Under the pieces are notes generated by a model that searched no databases, was not told where the DNA came from, and saw nothing but the letters and a program-made list of their open reading frames with translations. 64,000 bases of DNA, taken from NCBI RefSeq assembly GCF_036057275.1, contig NZ_CP107945.1, positions 4,774,001-4,838,000 on the forward strand, read 5' to 3'. This stretch comes from Streptomyces sp. NBC_00390. GTDB lineage: Bacteria; Actinomycetota; Actinomycetes; Streptomycetales; Streptomycetaceae. The translations under genes and the position numbers were made by a program. The stretch's first letter is position 1. Every line of letters starts with the position of its first letter. Shown here piece after piece: positions 35,035 to 64,000 of this stretch.

Positions 35035-36684
35035 CTATCCGTGCTTTGTCCGTGTGGGGGAGAAACTCTCACGAGCCGCATCGAAGTGTCTTCGGATGTC
35101 GGGGACTGCGCTGTCGGGTCCGGTGGCCCAGAAGTCGTAAGTCCGCCCGTTCTTGGTGTACCGCAGATCGATCGAGCGACGGCGAACGCCTGAGGCGGTG
35201 TCGTACCAAGTGAACTCCCAGATGGCGGCAGGTGCACCGTTGTGCTCGAGCCGCTCCAGGCGGACTCGCCGGTATTTCGGATAGTCGCCGGCCGTCGAGG
35301 TGCCGGTGCCGTCGTTGTCCTGTGCCGAGAGTTCGGCATACGGGTCCCCCTTTCCGTCAGGCGGATTCAGATGGACGCCGAGCCCATAGGCTTTGTCTGC
35401 CGAGTAGTAGAAGATGCGGCGCTTGTCCGCATACGGTCCGGTCCAGTCTTTGCCGATCTCCACGGTGAATCCGGCCGGATCGCTGATCGCGCGGAACCCC
35501 GGGCGGGCGGCTGTCGGTGAAACCGACGGTGTGGCTTGGCTGCTGGGGGGAGTCTGGAACCGTTCGGCCAGCAGGGGAGGCACGGCATAGACACCTGCGG
35601 CGGCGAAGGCGATGACCGTCGAGCCTATGAGTGCACGGGTGATCCAGCGGCGGGAGGAGCGACCGGGAACCTGTGCCAGGTCCGTGCCTTCGGGCCGGAC
35701 GGGTCTTTGCCGGTCGGCCGCAGGAGCGGTGGGCCGGCGTTCCTCGGAGGCCATACCGGTTCCGAACTCGGATCGCCGCCGATTGCCGGGGACACGAGCG
35801 GATGCGGCTCTAGGGGTCGGCGCCTTGGTGCGGAGTGTGAGTCCGTGTGGCGGCGGCGTGTCGGGGCGCGCGGCGGCAATCAGCAGGGACCGGGCCGCTG
35901 ATGCCGTGATCCGCTGCGCCGGGTCCTTGGTGAGCAGGCCGTCGATGACCTCGCTGAGGGGACCGGCATTGCGGGGCGGGTCGTACGTGCCGTCGAGCAC
36001 GGCCTGGAGGGTTGCGAACTCGTTGTTGCGGCGGAACGGAGAGCGTCCCTCGACCATTTCGTAGAGGGTTGCTCCCAGGGACCACAGATCACACGCCGGT
36101 ACCGCCCTCAGTCCCTGGACGCGTTCCGGCGACAGGTACTCGAGTGTGCCGATCATCGCGCCGGGCACGGTCAGGGTGTCGGCGCCGGCCACGGAGGCGA
36201 TGCCGAAGTCGGTGAGAACGGTGCGGCCGTCCGGCCGGGCCAGCAGAAGATTGGACGGCTTCACATCGCGGTGCACCACACCGGTCGCGTGGGCCGCGAT
36301 CAGCCCGTCCAGCGCCTCGCGGGCGATGCGAGCCGCATCGCCGACCGCCACACGGCCGTCGGCCATTTCCTCCGAGAGGGAACGTCCCGCCACGAGCTCC
36401 ATGATGATCCACGGCCGGTCGTCGTCCATGACGACGTCGTGAATCTCGACCACGTTCCGGTGCTGGACCAGTGCCGCAGCCCTGGCCTCCCGCAGCGCCC
36501 GCTCCGTCCGTCGACGCCATTCTTCGGGGTCGAGATCGACGCGCGCCCGGATCTCCTTGACCGCGACCGCACGCCCCAGCTTCACGTCCTGGGCCGCCCA
36601 TACCGCGCCCATGGCTCCGCGTCCGATCAGCTCGTTCAGCTGATAGCGGCCCGCGGCCAAGCCCCGAACTTCCGGTTCGGCCAT
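35035..36684 (-). CDS. Ser/Thr protein kinase with external sensor domain
   Basis: 549 residues from ATG 36684 (GGGGACGGGGA upstream); an in-frame ATG at 36720 would add 12 residues. The kinase domain covers about 14-275: GRGAMGAVW, catalytic Lys43 in VAVKEIRA, HRDVKPSNLLL, DFGIAS and SPERVQG. A disordered Pro/Arg segment leads to one membrane helix near 370-392 (ALIGSTVIAFAAAGVYAVPPLL). The external domain of about 150 residues (GFTVEIGKDWTGPY, WEFTWYDTASG) is not PASTA. It is a membrane kinase of the Streptomyces Hanks type; the signal is unknown. Confidence 0.88.
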   Translation of the reverse strand: MAEPEVRGLAAGRYQLNELIGRGAMGAVWAAQDVKLGRAVAVKEIRARVDLDPEEWRRRTERALREARAAALVQHRNVVEIHDVVMDDDRPWIIMELVAGRSLSEEMADGRVAVGDAARIAREALDGLIAAHATGVVHRDVKPSNLLLARPDGRTVLTDFGIASVAGADTLTVPGAMIGTLEYLSPERVQGLRAVPACDLWSLGATLYEMVEGRSPFRRNNEFATLQAVLDGTYDPPRNAGPLSEVIDGLLTKDPAQRITASAARSLLIAAARPDTPPPHGLTLRTKAPTPRAASARVPGNRRRSEFGTGMASEERRPTAPAADRQRPVRPEGTDLAQVPGRSSRRWITRALIGSTVIAFAAAGVYAVPPLLAERFQTPPSSQATPSVSPTAARPGFRAISDPAGFTVEIGKDWTGPYADKRRIFYYSADKAYGLGVHLNPPDGKGDPYAELSAQDNDGTGTSTAGDYPKYRRVRLERLEHNGAPAAIWEFTWYDTASGVRRRSIDLRYTKNGRTYDFWATGPDSAVPDIRRHFDAARESFSPTRTKHG

Positions 36685-36960
36685 TCCCCGTCCCCCACGC
36701 CCGCTGTGCTCCGTGGCCATGCCGGGACTGTTACCTGCCGTCAGGCCTTCGATCTCCCGAGATTCTGCCTCAATACACCGAACCAGTGTGCCCGGGGTTG
36801 TACACAGGACCGGCTCAGCGACAGCACCCGGCGAATCCAGGAGCGGTTTGGCTCCCCACCGATTGCCGGTCTCCACTGTTGGGTTCGGGTTCAGCGCGGC
36901 CACCGGAGTCTGATCGGCACCCGTCATGCCCGGCAGCAGGTTTTTCCTGGCCAGACACTG

Positions 36961-37001
36961 TGCCCCGGCAGGATTCGAACCTGCGACACCCGCTTCAGGA
37001 G
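36961..37001 (-). pseudogene. 3' half of a tRNA-Arg(CCT) gene (attachment-site remnant)
   Basis: Read on the minus strand, the sequence starts at an anticodon loop CTCCTGA (anticodon CCT), then has an AGCGG stem strand, a GTGTC variable loop, a T-arm (GCAGG-TTCGAAT-CCTGC) and an acceptor strand CGGGGCA. The five bases before the loop do not pair with AGCGG, so the 5' half is absent. This is the expected trace of tRNA 3'-end integration by a mobile element. Confidence 0.75.
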
Positions 37002-37432
37002 TTCAACCATTTGAGCAGTTCGCCCTGGGACCCAGGCTCATGGCGGGGGTTGTGCGTGCTCGGCAAGTGCTATCGCGCTGCCCTCCCCGGGCGACGGCGC
37101 TCGGAGAATAACCTGAGGCACGTAGATATGACGGGAGTCATTTCCGCGGCAAGCCCGGGCAACCAACCCCCAGCGCCGTGCGCGGGCGGCCCGAGACCCC
37201 CAGACCAAAGATGCGCAGACCACGCGGGCCGCAGCAGGGAAACTGAACAGGCGCAATCCGCACGCTCGGCGCGCCCCCCTTGCAGGTGATGAGCGGTTGC
37301 CGTTACGTCCCCGGCGAAGGGGGTGAGACCGGGAGCGCCTGTGCGGCCAAGCGCGTGTTGGAAGCACGCGTAGCGGTCCGGGCCCAGGCGCGATCGAGTG
37401 CACCTCGAGGAGATCGGGAACCCCTTATCCGG

Positions 37433-37684
37433 GTGGACGCGGCCCCACCCCGCAATCTGGCCCCCTGGGAAACGATCGCCCAGGAGCTCACCGAAGCCAT
37501 CAAGGACGGCACCCTGCTTCCCGGCGAGGAAGTCCCCACGATCGGCGACATCGCCCAGGCCCACGGAGCCTCCGTCGGCACCGCCCACCGCGCCTTCGCC
37601 CAGCTCAAGCAAGCCGGCCTGATCGAGGTGGGCCGAGGCCGCCGAGCCGTCGTACGCAGCCACCACGAGAAGAGGCTGGAGTGA
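37433..37684 (+). CDS. GntR-type winged-helix regulator, probably a fragment
   Basis: 83 residues from GTG 37433; the frame is open back to about 37280 but the extra residues look unstructured. The core is a GntR DNA-binding domain: PWETIAQELTEAIKDGTLLPGEEVPTIGDIAQAHGASVGTAHRAFAQLKQAGLIEVGRGRRAVV. There is no effector-binding domain. Similar short GntR units occur in KorSA-type regulators or recombinase tails of Streptomyces integrative elements. It sits 430 bases from the tRNA-Arg remnant, which supports an origin in such an element. No strong ribosome site is seen. The 295 bases after it (37685-37979) hold no gene. Confidence 0.5.
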   Translation: MDAAPPRNLAPWETIAQELTEAIKDGTLLPGEEVPTIGDIAQAHGASVGTAHRAFAQLKQAGLIEVGRGRRAVVRSHHEKRLE

Positions 37685-37979: not shown

Positions 37980-39890
37980 TCAGTCGGCGATGTCGACCCC
38001 GTATCCGCGTACCAGGACATCGAGGCCGTGGTCGTAGCCCTGGCCCACGGCGCGTAGGCGCCAGACCGGACCCCTGCGGTAGATCTCCGCGAGCAGCATG
38101 GTGCGCTCGGTGGTGGCTGCATCCAGGGTGGCCCGGGCAAGAGGGGCCCCGCTGCTGCCAGGGGCCGCACCGATCTGGATCGCACCGACCGTGCCGAAGG
38201 TGGCGGCGCCGTCGATGGCCGCAGCGACGACGACCTTGTGCGTCGCGGGCGGCAGGGACGCGAGGTCGAGGGCGATGGTCTGTTCGGCCGGGCCGCCGGT
38301 CAGCAGCCGCACAGTTCCGGCCGGGCTCTCCGGAGCTCCGTAGAAGATGAAGTCCCCGTCGAAGGTGACCTGTTCGTCCTCGTCGAGGAGGAAGGCGACG
38401 ACGTCGATCTCGTAGCCGGACTGCGGGGCCCAGCCGGCGGTGACGTACCACTCCGGCGCGGGTCTGCCGTGGGGCATGGGCAGGTCGATGACCCCGCCTC
38501 TCGGCATCACGTGCGGCTCCTGAAGCCGTGGAGCCGCCTCGGACGGGGAAGCGGCGGTCGGAGCGGTGAGCCAGTGGAGGTCGTGCACGGGGAGCCCGAG
38601 GGCGGTGATGCGGCTCATGCGCCGGTCGCCCTCCCCTCCCGGCAGGAGCACGACGTCGGTGACGCTGGCGGACAGGTTGACCGCCGCGGACCCGCCCAGC
38701 CCGACGATTCGGGTACGAGTCGCCGCGGCATCGGCATGGGCACCACCGAGCACCAGCACGCGACGCCCGGCCAGAGGCTTGTCCAAGGTGCCGACGGAGG
38801 GCTCCGGTCGACGCGGAGCGGGTACTGACACATCGGGGGCGGCCGTAGGGAAGGCTGCTGCCTCCGGAACGGGTGCGGCAGAAGTCGTGGTCGGCACCGG
38901 CTCCACGGGTCCGACGACTGGTTCTGCTTCCGGCTCAGCCACCGGGACGACAGCGACGGCCGCCGCCTCATGCGCTGTCCCCGGCCGTACGTCGGCCAAC
39001 AGCCGTAGGAAGGTGTGCTCGTCGATGACCGGCACGCCTTCGGCGAGCGCGCGTCGGGCCTTCGCTGAATCGGACGCCGGTTCATTGGTGACCAGCACGC
39101 TGGTGTGCCGGCTTACGGAGGTCATCATGTTCAGCCCAGAGGCAACCGCCCGCCCGACCAGCTCCGCTCGGGCATGGGCGGTCTCACCGGTGATCGCGAC
39201 CTTCATCCCCTGCTGGAGAGGCCCGCCGGGTGCCGGCCGTCCCGGATTGCGGTACGCGCAGGGAGTCTTCGGCGGCCTCGGCGTGAACGGGGACTCTGCC
39301 CGGGGCGGGCAGGTCACCAGCGGTAGGGGCAGATCGAGCCGCGCTGCCTCGCGCAGGGACGCCCGCAGGATCCCGGCCAGCACACGGGTGTCGTGCAGCG
39401 CATCGTGAGCACGCTGCTGGGGGACGCCGTAATGGGCGGCGAGGGTGCCGAGCTTCATGTCGTCCGTCGGCGGATCCACCTGGCGATTCAGAGCCAGGGT
39501 GCACAGCCGCTGCGACACCGGCAGCCACATCCGCGCACGGGCGAACTCGTAGGCCAGGAAGTCGTAGTCGAACTGGGCGTTGTGGGCGACCAGGACCCGG
39601 TCCTGGAGCATCGCTCCGATCCGCCCGGCGACCTGGTCGAAGGTCGGCGCCCCATGCAGTCGCTCGACGGTCAGCCCGTGCACCTCCACCGGCCCCGGAT
39701 CGCAGCCCGGATCGAGCAGCGTCGAGAACTCCCCGGTCTGCTCGCCGTCCGGACCGATCGTGATCACCGCTACGGACACTACGCGGTCTCGCCGAGCTAT
39801 GAGCCCCGAGGTCTCCACATCGATCAGGGCCCAGTCGTAGGCGTAGTCGCCCATGGAGGGCACGTCCAAGGAGGTGGAGACGAGACTCAT
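37980..39890 (-). CDS. DEDDh exonuclease - BRCT - BRCT - TerD fusion protein
   Basis: 636 residues from ATG 39890. Residues about 18-190 form a DnaQ-type 3'-5' exonuclease with all DEDDh residues: Asp24 and Glu26 in LIDVETSG, Asp in HNAQFDYDFL, and His/Asp in HDALHDTRVL. A first BRCT domain (MKVAITGETAHARAEL... VLVTNEPASDSAKARRALAEGVPVIDE) covers about 228-305. After a Pro/Glu/Val linker, a second BRCT-like unit (AGRRVLVLGGAHADAAATR) covers about 370-440. Residues 460-636 are a TerD domain with the calcium-binding type EIDVVAFLLDEDEQV...DGDFIFYG motif. It links DNA repair with the Ter stress system. Confidence 0.85.
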   Translation of the reverse strand: MSLVSTSLDVPSMGDYAYDWALIDVETSGLIARRDRVVSVAVITIGPDGEQTGEFSTLLDPGCDPGPVEVHGLTVERLHGAPTFDQVAGRIGAMLQDRVLVAHNAQFDYDFLAYEFARARMWLPVSQRLCTLALNRQVDPPTDDMKLGTLAAHYGVPQQRAHDALHDTRVLAGILRASLREAARLDLPLPLVTCPPRAESPFTPRPPKTPCAYRNPGRPAPGGPLQQGMKVAITGETAHARAELVGRAVASGLNMMTSVSRHTSVLVTNEPASDSAKARRALAEGVPVIDEHTFLRLLADVRPGTAHEAAAVAVVPVAEPEAEPVVGPVEPVPTTTSAAPVPEAAAFPTAAPDVSVPAPRRPEPSVGTLDKPLAGRRVLVLGGAHADAAATRTRIVGLGGSAAVNLSASVTDVVLLPGGEGDRRMSRITALGLPVHDLHWLTAPTAASPSEAAPRLQEPHVMPRGGVIDLPMPHGRPAPEWYVTAGWAPQSGYEIDVVAFLLDEDEQVTFDGDFIFYGAPESPAGTVRLLTGGPAEQTIALDLASLPPATHKVVVAAAIDGAATFGTVGAIQIGAAPGSSGAPLARATLDAATTERTMLLAEIYRRGPVWRLRAVGQGYDHGLDVLVRGYGVDIAD

Positions 39891-40146
39891 GGTGGCAAGG
39901 ATGATGCGATATGCAGCCCTCCTTCAACCTGCATGACGATTTGCCCTCATCTGGACGGTCGTGGCGAGGTGGTCGTCTCGCGCCGACCGCAGAGAGACCG
40001 CACCGGAATTTCGGGAAGTTCTCGGGAAGAACACCGCCAAGGACCGGACAAAATCGTCTCCAGCAGGACTCCCGCCGACTTCACCAGGGGGTCCTCCGCC
40101 CCCGTGCAACCACTCCGCCGGACTCGAAGAACTGGCCCTGACCAGC

Positions 40147-40172
40147 AAAAACGCCCTCACAAAGGGAGGGCG
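40147..40172 (-). terminator. Intrinsic terminator with T-run next to the tRNA-Arg(TCT) remnant
   Basis: On the minus strand CGCCCTC pairs with GAGGGCG around a seven-base loop and is followed by TTTTT (40147-40151). It comes directly after the tRNA remnant at 40181-40223 in the tRNA's reading direction, so it is probably the terminator of the original tRNA gene, moved together with it. Confidence 0.75.
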
Positions 40173-40180
40173 GAGAGAGG

Positions 40181-40223
40181 GCGCCCCCGGTAGGACTCGA
40201 ACCTACGGTCAAGCGCTTAGAAG
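40181..40223 (-). pseudogene. 3' half of a tRNA-Arg(TCT) gene (attachment-site remnant)
   Basis: On the minus strand the sequence begins with the loop CTTCTAA (anticodon TCT) and continues with stem strand GCGCT, variable loop TGACC, T-arm (GTAGG-TTCGAGT-CCTAC) and acceptor CGGGGGC followed by GC. The bases before the loop do not complete the anticodon stem, so the 5' half is missing. A T-run terminator follows at 40147-40172. The whole 704-base region 39891-40594 has no gene. Confidence 0.75.
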
Positions 40224-46641: not shown

Positions 46642-47835
46642 TCAGTCCTTCCTACCCTTCCCTCCGCCCTTCTTCGGAGGCTCTTCCTTCTCTTCTTCGT
46701 CCTTGTCGTCGTCAAACGAGGATGACGACAGGCCGGGAGAAGGCGTGGCCGACGTGGTGTCCGAGAGCCGAGCCTCACTGGGGGGCGTAGAGGTGGAGGG
46801 CACTGCGCTGCCCGGAGAAGGAGAGGAGGGGTCGCCCTCGCCGGAAGTCACAGAAGCGCCGATGACGGCTGCCATAGCGAACGCGACGGCTCCGGCGACA
46901 CCGATCACGGCTTTGGACGGCGTCCCGGTGGGCCGGGAACGCGACGGTCGAAGCGGGTGCGCCGGGGCTGGGGGGATGGGAGGGAAGGCCTGGGGCGCCG
47001 TGCTGGTCGTCGGCGCCTGGTCCGAGTGCGCTTCCACGGCGGCGAGCCAGCCCGCTGCCTGCTCGGCGGTCGGGCGTTGCACGGGGTCCTTGGCAAGCAG
47101 GAGCAGGAGGTGGTCAGCCAGTGATCGCGGTATCTCGGGGCGCAGATGGTCGGGCGGGACGGGGGCGGCGCTGACGTGCTGCTGGACGACGGCCGGTGTG
47201 TTCTCACCGAGGAACGGGGGGCGGCCGGTGAGCAGTTCGTACAGCACGCAGCCCAGTGCGTAGACGTCCGAGGCGGGCAGGGCGGGGCGTCCCACGGCGC
47301 GTTCGGGTGCCAGGTAGGAGCCGGTGCCCAGGATCTTGCCGGTTGCGGTGGGGGTGTGGGAAGCGTCGTCGGCGAAGCGCGCGATCCCGAAGTCGGTGAT
47401 CTTCACGATTCGGTTGGTGGTGAGCATGATGTTGCCGGGCTTGATGTCGCGGTGGATCACGCCTTGAAGGTGCGCCGCGGACAGGCCTGCCGCCATCTGA
47501 GCGCCGATCGCGCCGGCCTCCTGGGGATCCAGGAGCCCGTGCACGGCCAGTTCCTGGGCCAGGCTCCAGCCATCGACCAGCTCCATCACCAGGTAGAACC
47601 GGCCGTCGTGGCAGCCGGAGTCGTACATGCTGACCAAGTGGGGGTGGTTGAGGCGGGCCGCAGTCTGCGCCTCCATCCGGAAACGCTCGGCAGCCGCGTC
47701 GTCATCGTCCGCGCGGAGCAGCTTCACCGCCACCGGCCGGTCCAGCGCCTGGTCGGTGGCGCGCCAGACCTCGCCCATGGCACCGCGCCCCAGCGGCTCG
47801 TCCAGCCGATACCGCTCCGCAACCAGCACACCCAC
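46642..47835 (-). CDS. Ser/Thr protein kinase with single membrane helix and charged tail
   Basis: 397 residues from GTG 47835 (GGAAGGCGA six bases before). The kinase domain spans about 9-265: GRGAMGEVW, catalytic Lys38 in VAVKLLRA, HRDIKPGNIML, DFGIARF and LAPERAVGR, all as in active Hanks-type kinases. A Pro-rich linker leads to one membrane helix (AVIGVAGAVAFAMAAVIGASV), and the outside is only a Ser/Pro-rich stretch ending in an acidic then basic tail (FDDDKDEEEKEEPPKKGGGKGRKD). There is no PASTA sensor. The divergent gene encodes a peptidoglycan transpeptidase, a likely functional partner or target. Confidence 0.88.
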   Translation of the reverse strand: MGVLVAERYRLDEPLGRGAMGEVWRATDQALDRPVAVKLLRADDDDAAAERFRMEAQTAARLNHPHLVSMYDSGCHDGRFYLVMELVDGWSLAQELAVHGLLDPQEAGAIGAQMAAGLSAAHLQGVIHRDIKPGNIMLTTNRIVKITDFGIARFADDASHTPTATGKILGTGSYLAPERAVGRPALPASDVYALGCVLYELLTGRPPFLGENTPAVVQQHVSAAPVPPDHLRPEIPRSLADHLLLLLAKDPVQRPTAEQAAGWLAAVEAHSDQAPTTSTAPQAFPPIPPAPAHPLRPSRSRPTGTPSKAVIGVAGAVAFAMAAVIGASVTSGEGDPSSPSPGSAVPSTSTPPSEARLSDTTSATPSPGLSSSSFDDDKDEEEKEEPPKKGGGKGRKD

Positions 47836-48241
47836 ACTCGCCTTCCGACCGCGGCGACGCCGGCAGGCGCAGCCAGCCAATGTGACATGGGAGCTTCCGG
47901 CGGCGCAGCGGGCGCCGCACTCCTGCCACACCGCGTAGAAGAGCAAGGGGCAGGCAGGCGACGGGGGGACGCCCGGCCTGCCCCTTGCGTGGATGCCCGC
48001 ACGGGGGGAACGGGCACCACACCCGACCTTGCGCAGTCGGGCTCCTTTCATAACTGCGCGGGGAGCGCCGTTAACGTCACACCCTCCGCGCCGACGGGGC
48101 AGATGATGGTGCGGCCTGCCAGCGCGAAGCCGACCTGGTGGCCGTGCTGCGGGCGCGGGCTGAGTGGTTGACCCTGGCCGCGCCGCCCCTATGGTGGGGC
48201 CTCGGTGAGGAGTCTGGGGAGCGGGGATCAGCGGAGGACTT

Positions 48242-49927
48242 GTGGGCAAGAGAAGGCGCGCCGCGCGCAGCAGAACGAACCCCGCCGTGATCGGCGGGGT
48301 GGTCGCGGTGATCGTGGGCGGTGCGGGGTTCGCCGCGTACAGCATGTACAGCGGCGACGCGCCAGGCGAGGAAAGCTCGGCCGACGGCACTGCGAAGACA
48401 CTCACAGCACGCCCAGTGACGGCCGCGGAGGTCCGGGCCACGGCCGACGGGTTCCTCACCGCCTGGCAGCGGGGCGACGCCGCGAGCGCCGCCGCGTACA
48501 CGGACCGGACAGCGGCAGCACGGGCCGCGCTGTCCGGGTACCGCAAGGACGCGCACATCGACGAGGTGACGCTGACCCGCGGCAAGACGTCCGGGCCGAA
48601 GGTGACGTTCAGGGTCTCGGCCACGGTCTCGTACAAGGGGAAGAGTAAGCCCCTCACCTACGACTCCGAGCTCAGAGTCGTCCGGGCCGAGGACGGCAAG
48701 CCACTGGTCGGCTGGCAGTCGTCCGTCGTGCACCCGGACCTGAAGGAGGACGACAGGCTGGTCACGGGCGAGGCCGGGGACCCGCCGGTCAAGGCAGTGG
48801 ACCGGAACGGCGCGGAGCTCACCACGGCGAAGTACCCCTCGCTCGGCACCGTCCTGGACGGCCTGCGGGAGAAGTACGGCAGAAAGGCCGGGGGTACGGC
48901 GGGGGTCGAGCTGCGGGTGGTCAGCGGGGACAGCGCGAAGAAGAGGGAGAAGGGCGCGCAGGAGAGGGAGGGCACGCCCCCCGGCAAGACGCTGCTGACG
49001 GTGTCCAAGGGCATACCCGGAACGCTGCGGACCACGCTCAGCGCGACCGCGCAGGCGGCTGCCGAGCACGAAGTGGGCGAACGCGAGCGGGCGTCTGTTG
49101 TTGTCATGAGGCCGTCGACGGGCGAGATCCTCGCGGCGGCCAATTCGAGCCATGGCTTCAACACGGCGCTCCAGGGGTCCCTGGCGCCCGGCTCCACCAT
49201 GAAGATCGTGACTGCGTCGATGCTGCTGGAGAAGGACCTCACATCGATCGACAAGCAGCATCCGTGCCCAAAGTACGCGTCGTACGGCGGATGGAAGTTC
49301 CAGAACGTGGAGAAATTCGAGATCAAGAACGGTACGTTCCGTTCGAGCTTTGCTGCCTCCTGTAACACCGCCTTCATCACGCAGGCCGAGAAGCTCGACG
49401 ACTACGATCTGACCAAGCAGGCCCAGCAGGTCTTCGGGCTGGGCCTGAACAACTGGTCGACAGGGGTGTCCAGCTTCGACGGAGCGGTGCCGGTGCAGAG
49501 CAATGCGCAGATGGCGGCATCGCTCATCGGGCAGGGCGGGGTACGGATGAACCCGCTCAATGTCGCGTCCATCATCTCCACGGCCAAGACCGGCATCTTC
49601 CGGCAGCCGTATCTGGTCTCGCCCGACGTCGACGACCGCACGCTCGCGACGGCCCAGCGCAAGCTGGACGCGTCCGCGCAGACTCAGCTGCACGCACTGC
49701 TGAGCTACACCGCGACGTCGGGCTCCGCCGCCGAGGCCATGGCCGGCCTGGGCTCGGACATCGGAGGCAAGACGGGCTCGGCCGAGGTCGACGGCCAGAA
49801 GAAACCCAACGGCTGGTTCACCGCGTGGCGCGGCGACCTGGCCGCGGCGGCGGTGGTGCAACAGGGTGGGCGCGGAGGCGAGTCAGCGGGGCCGCTGGTG
49901 GCAGCGGTACTCCGGGCCGGTGGCTGA
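48242..49927 (+). CDS. Penicillin-binding protein (transpeptidase) with NTF2-like N-terminal domain
   Basis: 561 residues from GTG 48242. One membrane helix lies near residues 15-34, followed by an NTF2-like MecA_N-type domain (VRATADGFLTAWQRGDAASAAAYT) up to about residue 140 and a short dimerisation part. The transpeptidase domain has Ser318-Thr-Met-Lys321, Ser373-Cys-Asn375 and Lys510-Thr-Gly512, so it should cross-link peptidoglycan and bind beta-lactams. Many actinomycete PBPs of this size lie near Ser/Thr kinases; the kinase at 46642-47835 is divergent, with about 400 bases of shared upstream sequence. Confidence 0.9.
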   Translation: MGKRRRAARSRTNPAVIGGVVAVIVGGAGFAAYSMYSGDAPGEESSADGTAKTLTARPVTAAEVRATADGFLTAWQRGDAASAAAYTDRTAAARAALSGYRKDAHIDEVTLTRGKTSGPKVTFRVSATVSYKGKSKPLTYDSELRVVRAEDGKPLVGWQSSVVHPDLKEDDRLVTGEAGDPPVKAVDRNGAELTTAKYPSLGTVLDGLREKYGRKAGGTAGVELRVVSGDSAKKREKGAQEREGTPPGKTLLTVSKGIPGTLRTTLSATAQAAAEHEVGERERASVVVMRPSTGEILAAANSSHGFNTALQGSLAPGSTMKIVTASMLLEKDLTSIDKQHPCPKYASYGGWKFQNVEKFEIKNGTFRSSFAASCNTAFITQAEKLDDYDLTKQAQQVFGLGLNNWSTGVSSFDGAVPVQSNAQMAASLIGQGGVRMNPLNVASIISTAKTGIFRQPYLVSPDVDDRTLATAQRKLDASAQTQLHALLSYTATSGSAAEAMAGLGSDIGGKTGSAEVDGQKKPNGWFTAWRGDLAAAAVVQQGGRGGESAGPLVAAVLRAGG

Positions 49928-53195: not shown

Positions 53196-53762
53196 ATGCC
53201 GTCGGTGCTGGGGTTGATGGAACAGCGTGAGGCGCGGGCGAGGCAGGATCTGGAGTCCTGGACGGAGGTCCTGGAGCAGGCTCAGGCGGAGGTGGATGCC
53301 GCGCGGGAGCGGGTCGAGCGGGCCCGGGTGGGGCGTGAGGAGCTCGTGTCGGTGCTGGCCGGGGAGGGCGCGGTGAATACGCCGGTTTCCGTGCTGTCCG
53401 GTGGTGGGATGGCTGCTGCCGTGGGATCGGGCGGCCCCGGCGCGGGGCATGGCGAGCGGCCGCCGGTGTGGCGGTCGGGCATGGGCGAGGAGGTGCTCAG
53501 CGGCCTGTACCGGGAGGTGTTCGCCGCGGTGGTGGCTGCTTCGGGGCCGGTGAACGGGGTGGAGCTGACGCGGGCGGTGGGCCGGGAGGCGGAGATCAAG
53601 AACGAGGTGGAGAGGATCCGGCACCGTGCCTACGTGCTGGAGAAGCGGGGCTGGCTGGTGCGGGCGAAGGACGGACGGTTCATGCCCGTGCCCGCAGCAG
53701 TCGGGCGGGGCGTTTCTCCGGCCAGCGCGGAGCGTCTGCGGCCAGGCGCCGGGACAGCCTGA
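53196..53762 (+). CDS. Coiled-coil plus winged-helix protein, 3' end overrun by an IS
   Basis: 188 residues from ATG 53196 (AGGAGG upstream). Residues about 5-60 are a coiled coil (MEQREARARQDLESWTEVLEQAQAEVDAARERVERARVGREEL). Residues about 105-165 form a winged helix (YREVFAAVVAASGPVNGVELTRAVGREAEIKNEVERIRHRAYVLEKRGWLVRAKDGRFMPV). Similar proteins accompany transposons and plasmids in Streptomyces and probably bind DNA. The last 25 residues overlap the 3' end of the IS5-type transposase on the other strand, so the natural C-terminus may have been replaced. Confidence 0.65.
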   Translation: MPSVLGLMEQREARARQDLESWTEVLEQAQAEVDAARERVERARVGREELVSVLAGEGAVNTPVSVLSGGGMAAAVGSGGPGAGHGERPPVWRSGMGEEVLSGLYREVFAAVVAASGPVNGVELTRAVGREAEIKNEVERIRHRAYVLEKRGWLVRAKDGRFMPVPAAVGRGVSPASAERLRPGAGTA

Positions 53763-54681
53763 TCACGGCGGCCCACCACACCATCTGGGCGTGGTGGTCG
53801 GGGCGGCGTTCGTGGTCGCGGTTGAGGCGGCGTGAGCGGGCCAGCCAGCTCAGCGTGCGCTCCACGACCCACCTGCGGGCCAGGACGACAAATCCGCGTT
53901 GTCCGTCGGAGCGGCGCACGACCTCGGTCCGGACTCCGTGGCGGGCGAACGCCTTCGCCAGCGCCGGACCCTGGTAGGCACTGTCGACCCACACCAGTTT
54001 CAGCAGCCGGCCCGGCTGGTCCATGAACGTCTCCAGCAGTGCGGGGGCGGCCTTGGAGTCGTGCACATCGGCCGTGGTCACGGTGACCTCCAGGAGCAGG
54101 CCCTCGGTGTCGGTCAGGATGTGACGCTTGCGGCCGTCACGTGACTTGCCGCCGTCGTATCCGCGGCTGTCCTCGCCGACGGTCTCGGAGGCGTCCACCG
54201 ACTGACTGTCGATGACTCCCGCACTGGGCTCGGCGTTGCGGCCCGAGCGTTCCCTCGCCGAACGTCGCAGGCGTTCGTGCAGTTCACGCACATAGCCGTA
54301 GGACCGCCAGCGGCGGAAGAAGTCGTAGACCGCCCGCCAGTACGGGAAGTCGACCGGCATGGCCGTCCACTTCACGCCGTTGTCGACCAGGTAGCGCACC
54401 GCGTCGAGTATCTCGCGGTGGCAGTACGCCTCCGGACGCCCGCCCCGCTTCAGCAGCCAGGCCGGAACCGGCATCGCCGAGCGGACCTCGGCCCACTCCG
54501 CATCCGTCATGTCACTGGGATAGCAGCCTGCCCGCAGCCCCGGAGCGATCGAACCGAACCGGTGCACGTAGCAGTCACACGCAGGGGTGACCGCGGTGGA
54601 CGCAGGCACAGTGGTACTGCTCAACTGATCGGGCAACGGGCTTCCTTGGTCGTGCTGGTGTCGTAACCGCGTCACTACCAA
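53680..54681 (-). CDS. IS5-family transposase
   Basis: Up to 333 residues (TTG 54681); internal starts, for example the ATG before TDAEWAEVRSAMPVPAWL, are also possible. It has the IS5 layout: MTDAEWAEVRSAMP, VKWTAMPVDFPYWRAVYDFFRRW, then the DDE triad with Asp in VIDSQSV, Asp in LVWVDSAYQGP and Glu in RRWVVERTLSW. All catalytic residues are present, so the enzyme may be active. Terminal inverted repeats were not found by eye. The element splits the region between the winged-helix protein and the broken phosphodiesterase gene. Confidence 0.85.
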   Translation of the reverse strand: MVVTRLRHQHDQGSPLPDQLSSTTVPASTAVTPACDCYVHRFGSIAPGLRAGCYPSDMTDAEWAEVRSAMPVPAWLLKRGGRPEAYCHREILDAVRYLVDNGVKWTAMPVDFPYWRAVYDFFRRWRSYGYVRELHERLRRSARERSGRNAEPSAGVIDSQSVDASETVGEDSRGYDGGKSRDGRKRHILTDTEGLLLEVTVTTADVHDSKAAPALLETFMDQPGRLLKLVWVDSAYQGPALAKAFARHGVRTEVVRRSDGQRGFVVLARRWVVERTLSWLARSRRLNRDHERRPDHHAQMVWWAAVIRLSRRLAADAPRWPEKRPARLLRARA

Positions 54682-55187: not shown

Positions 55188-56657
55188 TCAGTCGCCTTGA
55201 TAGAGGCGAACTGGATCGATCAGCTGGATGGTGGGGTCGTTCTCGGCGAGGTGGCGTAGTTCGTTTGTGAAGCCGGTGCCGCTGTAGAACTGCAGCCGGG
55301 TGACGTCGGTGGCGGTGCCGCGCGCGGTGAGGAGAGCACGGATGTGGCGGAGCCGTTCGAGGTGGCCCTTTCCCATGACGTCGTTCCATTTGGCTTCGCC
55401 GATGGCGAGCAGTGCTTCGCGGCCGCTGTCGGTCTCGCCATGGACCGCGACGTCGACTTCGTGGCTGGTCTTCGCGGCAGGATCGTTGACGGTGCCGCTG
55501 CCCACCTTTGTGACGTGCCCGCCGTGGGTTGCGGGGGACGCGTGCCAGCGGGCCCATTCGCGGCCGACCTGTTCGAAGTGCGGGCCGACAACCTTGCTGC
55601 GGAAGGTGGACTGGGCGCGGCGCCAGACGGCGGGGGCGCGTCCGGGGCGTTCCAGATCGCCCCAGGCGGGGCGCATGACCGCGTGGTAGAAGGCGATGAG
55701 AGGTTCGGCGATGCGGTAGGCGGAGCGGTTGCGGCGGAACGCGTCGGCCTCGTGCGTGATCATGCCGACGTCCTGGAGGACGCTGAGCGGGTGGGCGAGG
55801 TCGGTGGACTTGCGGCCGAGGTAGTCGGCGATGCCGCCGCGTGCGGCGTTTCCGGCGGCGATGGCGGCCAGGACGGAGTGGTAGAGCGCGGTGTCGTGGA
55901 GTTCGGGTTCCTCTGCGAGCAGGTAGCGGGCCTCGCGGAAGAGCGGACGGGCGGGATTGAGGACGGCGCGGGTGACCCAGGCGTCGAAGTCGTGGGGCCC
56001 GGCGGGGGCGTCGCCCTGGGTGAACTCGCGGCGGTAGGCGGGGGTGCCGCCGACGATGGCGTGGGTGAGCAGTGCGGTACGCGGGTCGGTGATCTCCCAG
56101 AACTCGGCGGCGAGGCGGAAGTCCAGGGTGGGGACGACGAGTTCCAGGCCGGCGCGGCCGCGCAGCGGGGCGTTGCCGGCGAGGAGTCCGCCCATGAAGG
56201 ACAGGGCGGAGCCGCACAGCAGGAGCCGTACGGGGGTGTTGGTGTGCTGGGCGGCGGGGTCGAGGGCGCGCTGGATGATCGAGGGGAGGGCGGGGGAGGC
56301 CTTGGCGAGGAAGGGGAACTCGTCGATGACCGCGATGGTGGGGCCGCCCCTGTCGGCGATGCGCATGAGCTCGGTGACGGCCTCGTCCCAGTGGGTGAAG
56401 CGGAACGGGGTGGGCTGGTCGCGGTGGCGGGCGAGGGCTTCGCCGAACTGGCGCAGGGCGTCGGTTTCGGTGGTCTCGGTGGCGGTGAACATGAAGCCGC
56501 CTCTTGCCCGCGTGACGGCGTCCAGGAGGAAGGTCTTGCCCTGGCGGCGGCGGCCGGAGACCACGCCGAGGGTGGCGCGCGGGCCGGGCAGGGCGGCGAA
56601 GCGGGTCAGCTCGGCCCACTCGAAGTCGCGGTCGAACATCTCGGCAGGTTTGTCCAC
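55188..56657 (-). CDS. AAA+ ATPase with nuclease-like C-terminal domain (DUF234 type)
   Basis: 489 residues from GTG 56657. The ATPase part (1-230) has Walker A GRRRQGKTF near residue 35, Walker B IAVIDEFPFL and a sensor-like LLLCGSALSFM. Residues about 250-345 contain a winged helix (LGRKSTDLAHPLSVLQDVGMITHE). The C-terminal 130 residues hold HEVDVAVHG and AIGEAKW, the D...ExK set of a PD-(D/E)xK nuclease, as in archaeal-type DUF234 ATPases. The cellular role is unknown and may involve defence or DNA handling. It lies between two insertion sequences, and a TATAAT box is upstream. Confidence 0.85.
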   Translation of the reverse strand: MDKPAEMFDRDFEWAELTRFAALPGPRATLGVVSGRRRQGKTFLLDAVTRARGGFMFTATETTETDALRQFGEALARHRDQPTPFRFTHWDEAVTELMRIADRGGPTIAVIDEFPFLAKASPALPSIIQRALDPAAQHTNTPVRLLLCGSALSFMGGLLAGNAPLRGRAGLELVVPTLDFRLAAEFWEITDPRTALLTHAIVGGTPAYRREFTQGDAPAGPHDFDAWVTRAVLNPARPLFREARYLLAEEPELHDTALYHSVLAAIAAGNAARGGIADYLGRKSTDLAHPLSVLQDVGMITHEADAFRRNRSAYRIAEPLIAFYHAVMRPAWGDLERPGRAPAVWRRAQSTFRSKVVGPHFEQVGREWARWHASPATHGGHVTKVGSGTVNDPAAKTSHEVDVAVHGETDSGREALLAIGEAKWNDVMGKGHLERLRHIRALLTARGTATDVTRLQFYSGTGFTNELRHLAENDPTIQLIDPVRLYQGD

Positions 56658-58098: not shown

Positions 58099-59727
58099 GG
58101 CCCTGTCTCACTTTCGGTGGTGACGGAGCGTCGTGATGGGTCGTTGACATTCGCGTGAAGGATGTCAACGAGCTCGTGCAGACGGTCTTTTCGGGTCTGT
58201 CCCCGCTGGTCATCGCGGATGTGGTCGACGAAGGTGAGCGGATCGTGGTGCGGGCACGGACTCCGCGGGACACTGCGGTCTGCCCGGTGTGCGGGGCCCC
58301 GTCGGAACGCGTGCACGGCTATCACTGGCGGACAGTCGCGGACCTGCCGGTCGATGAACGACGGGTGGTGGTCCGTGTGCGGGTGCGGCGTCTGGTGTGT
58401 CCCACGCGCGGCTGCCGTCACACCTTCCGCGAACAGGTGCCCGGCGTCCTGGACCGGTACCAGCGACGCACCGCTCGTCTGACCAGGCAGATCAAGGCCG
58501 TGGTCAAGGAGTTAGCGGGCCGGGCCGGGGCACGTCTGCTGGCGATATTGGCGGTGAGCCTGTCGCGTCACACGGCCCTGCGCACCCTGCTGCGGATCTC
58601 GTTGCCCACCGGGCGGGTGCCCCGTGTGATCGGCGTCGACGACTTCGCCCTGCGCCGGCGGCACCGCTATGCCACCGTGATCATCGATGCCGAGACCCAT
58701 GAGCGGATCGACGTGCTGCCCGACCGCACGGCCGACACCTTGGAGGCGTGGCTGCGCGACCATCCTGGCATCGAGATCGTGTGCCGCGACGGCTCAGCCA
58801 CCTACGCCGAGGCGATCCGGCGCGCCCTGCCTGACGCGGTGCAGGTCGCGGACCGGTGGCATGTGTGGCACAACCTGTGCGAAGCCGCCTTGAGCGAGGT
58901 CAAGGCACACAGCACCTGCTGGGCCGCCGTGCTGGACGCGCCCATCTACGACGGGCCCCGTGCCCAGACCACCCTGGAACGCTGGCACCAGGTCCACGGC
59001 ATGCTCGAGAAGGGTGTGGGCCTGCTCGAATGCGCCCGCCGTCTGCAGCTGGCCCTGAACACCGTCAAACGCTACGCGCGAGCCGAGAAGCCCGAGCGCA
59101 TGCTCCGCGTCCCCAAATACCGCGCCAGCCTCGTCGACCCCTACCGCGAGCACCTGCGCAAACGCCGAGCCGAAGACCCCAGCGTCCCCGTCAAGCACCT
59201 CTTCGAAGAGATCAAAGCCCTCGGCTTCGCCGGCTGCCTCAACCTCCTGCATAAGTACATCAACCAAGGCCGCGCGGACGCCGACCGCAGCCACATCTCC
59301 CCACGCAGGCTCGCCCGGATGCTGCTGACCAGGCCCGACAACCTCAAGGCCGAGCAACACGAGCTCCTGGCCAAGCTCACCGCCGCCTGCCCCGAGATGA
59401 CCCAACTGGCTGCAGATATCAGGGACTTCGCCCCACTCCTTGCGCCTCACACCGACAATGCCGATGCGCTCACGCGCTGGATCGCCCAAGTCCGAGCAGC
59501 CGACCTGCCCCATCTACATGCCTTCACCCGAGGCCTGGACCGGGACATCGACGCCGTGATCGCCGGGCTCACGCTTCCGTACAGCAACGGCCCCACCGAG
59601 GGCGTCAACACCAAGACCAAATGGATCGCACGCCAGATGCACGGACGAGCAGGCTTCACCTTGCTTCGGCACCGCATCCTCCTCGGATAGCAGCACGCTC
59701 CGTCACCACCGAATGTGAGACAGGGCC
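58099..59727 (+). mobile_element. Complete ISL3-family insertion sequence
   Basis: The element is 1629 bases long with 33-base terminal inverted repeats (58099-58131 and 59695-59727) that differ at one position; both start GGCCCTGTCTCAC from the outside. It is bordered on both sides by the 8-base direct repeat GTTCACTG (58091-58098 and 59728-59735), a target-site duplication of the length known for ISL3 elements. The only gene is the transposase at 58155-59690. The intact ends and enzyme suggest recent, possibly still active insertion. Confidence 0.93.
58155..59690 (+). CDS. ISL3-family transposase
   Basis: 511 residues. The N-terminus has a zinc-binding region (VCPVCGAPSERVHGY... LVCPTRGCRHTF). 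The catalytic part shows Asp in GVDDFALRRRHRYATVIID, Asp in VCRDGSATYAEAIRRALPDAVQVADRWHV and Glu in SNGPTEGVNTKTKWIARQMHGRAGF, the DDE set of the family. It is not interrupted. It lies within inverted repeats that are 23 bases before the start and 4 bases after the stop. Confidence 0.93.
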   Translation: MKDVNELVQTVFSGLSPLVIADVVDEGERIVVRARTPRDTAVCPVCGAPSERVHGYHWRTVADLPVDERRVVVRVRVRRLVCPTRGCRHTFREQVPGVLDRYQRRTARLTRQIKAVVKELAGRAGARLLAILAVSLSRHTALRTLLRISLPTGRVPRVIGVDDFALRRRHRYATVIIDAETHERIDVLPDRTADTLEAWLRDHPGIEIVCRDGSATYAEAIRRALPDAVQVADRWHVWHNLCEAALSEVKAHSTCWAAVLDAPIYDGPRAQTTLERWHQVHGMLEKGVGLLECARRLQLALNTVKRYARAEKPERMLRVPKYRASLVDPYREHLRKRRAEDPSVPVKHLFEEIKALGFAGCLNLLHKYINQGRADADRSHISPRRLARMLLTRPDNLKAEQHELLAKLTAACPEMTQLAADIRDFAPLLAPHTDNADALTRWIAQVRAADLPHLHAFTRGLDRDIDAVIAGLTLPYSNGPTEGVNTKTKWIARQMHGRAGFTLLRHRILLG

Positions 59728-63531: not shown

Positions 63532-64000
63532 AAGAATTCTCACTTTCTGTCCTGCGCTGCCGGTTGGGCGCGGCCGAGTCCGGTGAATCGCAGAGGGCGT
63601 GTTCGACCCTGGTGTGCCGGCGGCCTCTGCGTTCACGCCGTCATGGTGACATTCGGCCGGACCCCTTGACCAGGGTTCACGGAATTGATTGCGGTCAAGG
63701 CTGACGGCTCTGTGTTTGATCCCTTTGGTAACCGGTTCTGTCGGGGCCGGCGTGGCCCTTCCATGCTTCCCGGTGAACGTGATCGGGATGCCACCGGCCT
63801 GGAAGGCAAATACCTGACACTTTCGCGCGACCATTGCGCTCACCCGGACCTGTTGGAGTGCCCTGCTTTCATCATTCGATCACTCTCCGAGGTGTCTGTA
63901 TTTTGGTTTCGCTGATGTTGTAATTACGCCTCAATGTTCGTCTTCACGTACCCCATAGATCTGAGTGAACCTCTATTAATCCTCGATTAACAGTGCCGAG
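63532..64000. other. Gene-free region at the right edge
   Basis: No convincing coding frame was found in these 469 bases. GC content falls toward the right end (63890-64000, with ATTAATCCTCGATTAA), so it may contain promoters for the MmpS gene and for a gene beyond the edge. Confidence 0.3.

Follow-up and report, generated by a model that had tools for sequence, protein, structure and literature searches.

Among the described TerD proteins, the closest to the one analyzed here are KP-TerD (2kxt/2kxv), SCO TerD (3ibz), SCO6318 (2qz7), and SAV2460 (2qng), which share with it the TerD fold and a C-terminal GQGY...GV motif and differ from it in that our protein lacks the GDNxTGxGxGDDE calcium loop, is fused to a nuclease, and has no ter operon neighbours. 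For KP-TerD, a published summary of the structure gives residues 40, 41, 42, 78, 79, and 89 as the ligands of the Ca1 site (PMC8779313). It has been proposed that specialised nucleotide derivatives are what TerD recognises (PMC7159879; PMC7824862). The Ter stress-response and anti-phage systems (Anantharaman et al. 2012, as cited in PMC7824862) have in common with our protein the TerD domain and the theme of TerD in DNA processing; no TerB, TerC, TerF, TelA, or nucleoside-synthesis genes recur beside the fusion. For the nuclease half, the closest paralogue is a non-mobile exonuclease-BRCT protein of the PRK06063 type in the same genome (G000:C1:6563514-6564581, 355 aa; 47% identity over residues 16-304), with the same catalytic residues and the BRCT pocket R and K (Ser for Thr), which stops after BRCT1 and a short tail and has neither BRCT2 nor TerD. 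The single-gene PADLOC candidate PDC-S48 has the same layout of exonuclease plus C-terminal BRCT; it is an unvalidated candidate and its profile contains no TerD.

The window, that is, the whole stretch of 64,000 nucleotides that was analyzed (G000:C1:4774001-4838000 of an 8.69-Mb genome), carries at 37980-39890 (-) an intact ORF coding for a protein of 636 aa (P0001), exactly the position and length given in a preliminary description of this DNA. The architecture proposed there, a DEDDh exonuclease followed by two BRCT modules and a TerD domain, was borne out by Pfam for the exonuclease, BRCT1, and TerD and by structure search and a profile match for BRCT2; the model of the whole protein was of modest confidence (mean pLDDT 68). 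Every part belongs to a known family, and the four-part protein with a TerD without calcium loop and with tRNA-Arg mobility was not found in the open literature searched, which did not include the 2012 Ter survey, where the exact architecture might be mentioned. The exonuclease domain occupies residues 19-185 (39336-39836, -), with Pfam RNase_T at residues 23-174 (E 2.8e-21) and fold matches to DinG, PolC, and epsilon. Residues D24, E26, D108, H162, and D167 were invariant in 32 aligned relatives and then in a more diverse set, giving the D-E-D-H-D set in an RNase H-type fold that defines the DEDDh (DnaQ-like) class. Since these five residues are all present and invariant among relatives, the catalytic site is complete, as had been claimed for it, and the protein is predicted to be a metal-dependent 3'-5' exonuclease. 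Adjoining the catalytic set, without being a member of it, the window protein has H166 where almost all relatives carry D.

BRCT1 (residues 224-300; 38991-39221, -) was recognized by Pfam at residues 227-296 with an E value of 6.6e-4, one bit under the curated cut-off, and the best matches of its profile among solved structures were the BRCTs of DNA ligase and RFC1. By sequence and fold it is a BRCT of that type, and T234-G235, R241, and K277, to which the pocket role is assigned by analogy, are kept in every fused relative. It differs from the BRCTs of NAD+ DNA ligase and RFC1 in being borne by an exonuclease and in the company of a second BRCT without the pocket Ser/Thr. Considering that the isolated RFC1 BRCT favours 5'-phosphate ends and that recognition of the 5'-phosphate at gaps and nicks has been proposed (PMC9293009), the conserved residues of BRCT1 may bind 5'-phosphate ends as in RFC1.

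The second BRCT (residues 372-443; 38562-38777, -) is divergent. Sequence-only tests, namely, Pfam, a profile search of PDB sequences, and hhalign against BRCT1, gave nothing significant, so proof of that kind was dropped and the fold decided. The best of five AlphaFold models of the 372-443 fragment had a mean pLDDT of 87, with 92-96 in the core; the other four averaged 56-62, so that the assignment depends on this one model. When it was used for a PDB fold search, all 50 matches listed were BRCT domains or BRCT-containing chains, including TopBP1, Rad4, XRCC1, and REV1 (best E 8e-4, TM up to 0.72), and the fragment also matched the BRCT segment of the PADLOC profile PDLC05028 (PDC-S48) with an E value of 5.7e-5. 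On this model and the profile match the region was identified as a BRCT fold, in agreement with the two modules that had been proposed together with structure prediction as the check. Residue 381, the place of the usual phosphate-binding Ser/Thr, is Leu (Val in one relative) and the usual pocket Lys is replaced by R424, and the Ser/Thr plus Lys pair was absent from the fused relatives aligned; because of these substitutions, BRCT2 may not bind phosphate in the mode that is usual for the fold.

The TerD domain covers residues 477-634 (37989-38462, -). Pfam TerD (PF02342) was found at residues 477-630 with an E value of 5.9e-29 and 101 bits against a gathering score of 25.3, and the TerD fold is present; in the place of the GDNxTGxGxGDDE loop there is a GPxEQ-type motif. 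The preliminary description had considered the domain calcium-binding and had proposed a structural check of its metal sites. In an alignment with the solved chain of KP-TerD, our protein has no counterpart of D78 and N79, which fall in a deletion; Q537 takes the place of E89 (with H in a single relative) and E494 that of D40 (D in two relatives), and D42 is retained as D496. The loss of Ca1 ligands is common to all fused relatives; the canonical metal site is thus gone family-wide and the claim of a calcium-binding TerD was rejected. The domain might still bind calcium at another site. Among the TerD paralogues that stand alone in this genome, L007 and L008 contain the GDN...GDDE loop, and L003, L006, and the first domain of L004 and L005 lack it; as the paralogues are split in this way, the fused TerD groups with the loop-less kind. 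L006 appears, by eye, to be fused to a C-terminal AIM24-like region.

Some 60 loci of actinobacteria (Streptomyces, related Streptomycetaceae, Actinomadura, and Nocardia) have the full architecture, with identities down to 45%, and it therefore represents a family and not a one-off event. In the bacterial genome scan, the 60 loci were mostly from Streptomyces, with several from Actinomadura and one from Actinacidiphila, and the close relatives found were Streptomyces; plasmid records added a linear plasmid from Streptomyces and a replicon from Nocardia farcinica, and other Streptomycetaceae genera had full-length versions with 45-48% identity. The presence is patchy, in 8 of 61 same-genus relatives and, at the level of the family, in 9 of 81 (E 1e-100), the two samples on which the prevalence depends, and several copies are broken. 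Carriage by phages was rejected: among the matches listed, phages had the exonuclease-BRCT half only, and no contig carrying the fusion was found among the viral contigs searched. In the survey of architecture and neighbours that had been suggested, no coding neighbour family recurred across loci, apart from tRNA-site flanks and unrelated genes, so conserved operon partners were rejected, and no terB/C/F/Z, telA, or nucleoside genes formed a Ter operon around the gene. Selection was measured as the median dN/dS of each domain. The exonuclease was under the strongest constraint (0.13), followed by BRCT1 (0.20), BRCT2 (0.23), and TerD (0.245, somewhat faster than the exonuclease), against 0.54 in the Ala/Pro-rich linker. 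Each of the four folded parts is thus being maintained; the ORF is real and each of its domains is under purifying selection.

The locus itself is bounded by tRNA remnants, both of them real and on the (-) strand. At 290 bp upstream of the fusion gene lies an att-like remnant formed by the 43-nt 3' half of tRNA-Arg(UCU) (40181-40223, -), whose intact copy is at G000:C1:5538066-5538139; the tRNA terminator, a stem-loop plus T run (40152-40172, -) that is conserved behind the intact tRNA in relatives, was carried along with it. The remnant on the other side comes from a different tRNA: it is the 39-nt 3' half of tRNA-Arg(CCU) (36963-37001, -; genome position 4810963), the farthest repeat found in an island that was built by tandem accretion, is about 68 kb long (G000:C1:4810963-4879284; from window position 36963 past the window end at 64000), and contains no fewer than five 3'-half repeats. 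Further CCU copies of 43-50 nt are located at genome coordinates 4868368, 4853857, 4851206, and 4847916, and the intact tRNA is at G000:C1:4879211-4879284. The element adjoining it, with an integrase, a pSAM2-type RepSA, and an HTH protein, is a pSAM2-like actinomycete integrative element, and the fusion gene is the last gene at the far end of the island. No intact tRNA or Rfam RNA was detected close to the fusion gene. Between it and the CCU repeat there is a short GntR-type regulator of 134 aa (37280-37684, +), which is not conserved beside the gene. A clean empty site at the left flank was discarded, the flank being itself accessory and the relatives having only generic kinase similarity there; serine/threonine protein kinases flank the gene at 35035-36927 (-) and 46642-48657 (-) and are not conserved as neighbours in relatives. 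An AAA ATPase (55188-56657, -) matches the PADLOC phage-defence candidate PDC-S27 with 65 bits, and two transposases, of IS4/5 type and ISL3 type (53680-54681, -, and 58155-59690, +), lie inside the island.

In relatives, a tRNA-Arg 3' end was found upstream of the gene on the same strand at 20 of 58 loci (loci sharing a site not being independent), most within 2.5 kb, at UCU, CCU, and ACG genes; a simple density estimate gives about 0.03 expected ends for a span of 2.5 kb. The other 38 loci had no recognisable tRNA-Arg end. In three loci (L010, L019, and L039), an intact tyrosine integrase, 97-99% identical, directly follows the gene in convergent orientation, and what is left of it after decay can be recognised in L011, L015, L032, L043, L046, and L060. 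The L010 element lies between two copies of the tRNA-Arg(UCU) 3' half that match exactly over 52 bp and measures 29,653 bp (29.65 kb), and the L010/L133 element cargo includes an OLD/AriA-like ATPase-TOPRIM, an RmrA-like HTH-peptidase protein, and PDC-M54A-like and CoiA-like proteins. At the other extreme of size, L017 has a unit of 3.0 kb, bounded by tRNA-Arg(CCU) and a repeat of 31 nt, that is essentially the fusion gene alone. With att-type half-repeats in the window and integrase plus direct repeats of tRNA 3' ends in relatives, the transfer that had been suggested from the remnants was supported, and the gene is cargo of tRNA-associated integrative elements; a compact nuclease is thereby added to the tRNA-Arg element cargo, alongside recognised defence-like genes. 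The L010 element also has, with tRNA-Arg(UCU) on one side and the fusion gene on the other, a 634-aa ORF (L010:3979-5883, +) in which a HEPN-like RNSLAH (RNxxxH) motif was read by eye; it gave a weak PADLOC hint and has decayed copies in L018 and L032.

Taking these data into account, we propose, with a probability of about one half, that the gene codes for a mobile, single-gene nuclease for DNA-end processing, with TerD as sensor or adaptor, that travels as cargo of tRNA-Arg elements. BRCT1 would dock on nicks, gaps, or ends with a 5'-phosphate and hand the 3' strand over to the DEDDh domain for digestion, and BRCT2 would supply a further protein or DNA contact. TerD, having lost the known calcium site, could serve as a ligand sensor or adaptor coupling the nuclease to a signal of stress or infection. 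The gene would spread as attL-proximal cargo of integrative elements inserting into tRNA-Arg genes, and the benefit would lie in protecting against phages or foreign DNA of other origin. This defence role is plausible, considering the one element with defence-like genes and the match to PDC-S48. The patchy distribution, the position as element cargo, and the defence-like company favour it over repair or a service to the element, only mildly, because defence genes were looked for in a single complete element and the PDC-S48 match is not specific: the fusion scored 233 bits, a strong match, and the non-mobile paralogue 251, and for this reason the match was rejected as proof of defence. A narrower version, in which the family is a single-protein actinobacterial immune effector spread by tRNA-Arg elements, whose calcium-site-less TerD perceives a small molecule of infection or stress and licenses the BRCT-targeted exonuclease on exposed ends of linear phage or incoming element DNA, is a tentative one, and we consider it rather doubtful.

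The paralogue bears on what is proper to the fusion. Since its catalytic and DNA-end features are the same, those features do not explain the fusion. The preliminary description had held that fusion delivers TerD to DNA ends or nicks; delivery is plausible, because BRCT1 is of the LigA/RFC1 type with conserved T/G/R/K, but end binding would belong to the exonuclease-BRCT half, as the stand-alone paralogue shares it, and is not specific to the fusion. The same comparison sustains the best of the alternatives, an unlikely one in our view, in which the protein would be a repair accessory, a horizontally spread and elaborated copy of exonuclease-BRCT that trims damaged ends in stress, with TerD as a general stress adaptor and no antiviral role. 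It agrees with the closest paralogue being a non-mobile exonuclease-BRCT that scores higher on the same profiles, and with a match of the fusion to the NCBIfam equivalog PRK06063 of 378 bits, just under the cut-off of 389. Against this, a repair gene would not usually be so patchy, mobile, and often decayed in its distribution, and the paralogue already supplies the repair activity.

The order tRNA-Arg end, gene, and convergent integrase in the three integrase-bearing elements could also be expected if the gene, as a standard module lying between attL and the integrase, processed or protected the DNA ends of the excised or transferred element or disabled host nucleases or rival elements. An upstream leader points in the same direction: the pattern GGTTGAAG-N17-TCATCCTTG (39896-39929, -; alignment of 20 loci) is private to the gene, ends just before the start codon across unrelated contexts, and moves with the gene as one block. 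Such a service to the element is nevertheless improbable, given that many loci, including the window, have no integrase and keep the gene intact under selection and that most Actinomadura and Nocardia copies and many from Streptomyces lack a recognisable element. A reading in which the TerD tail adds nothing and its fusion is neutral, an annotation-level coincidence on just another DnaQ-like exonuclease, would fit the lost calcium ligands and a dN/dS higher than that of the exonuclease, but is very improbable for a domain whose dN/dS is held at about 0.25, which is present in full-length copies from several genera at identities as low as 45%, and in which residues specific to the family are invariant. 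The family shows that TerD can stay under selection without the described calcium site. How TerD acts is an old open question; in the fusion, TerD is covalently tied to an enzyme whose assay is predictable, which makes TerD function testable through the nuclease.

The exact leader pattern was matched in 4 of 37 genomes, once in each and only at the fusion gene, and no regulon with a common leader motif was found among the 37 genomes. Upstream of the gene there was no good promoter match to an SOS (LexA-like) box, whose window-wide count was near chance expectation. The leader includes an AAGGA...TCCTT inverted repeat, for which an operator or the promoter of a leaderless transcript are candidate roles.
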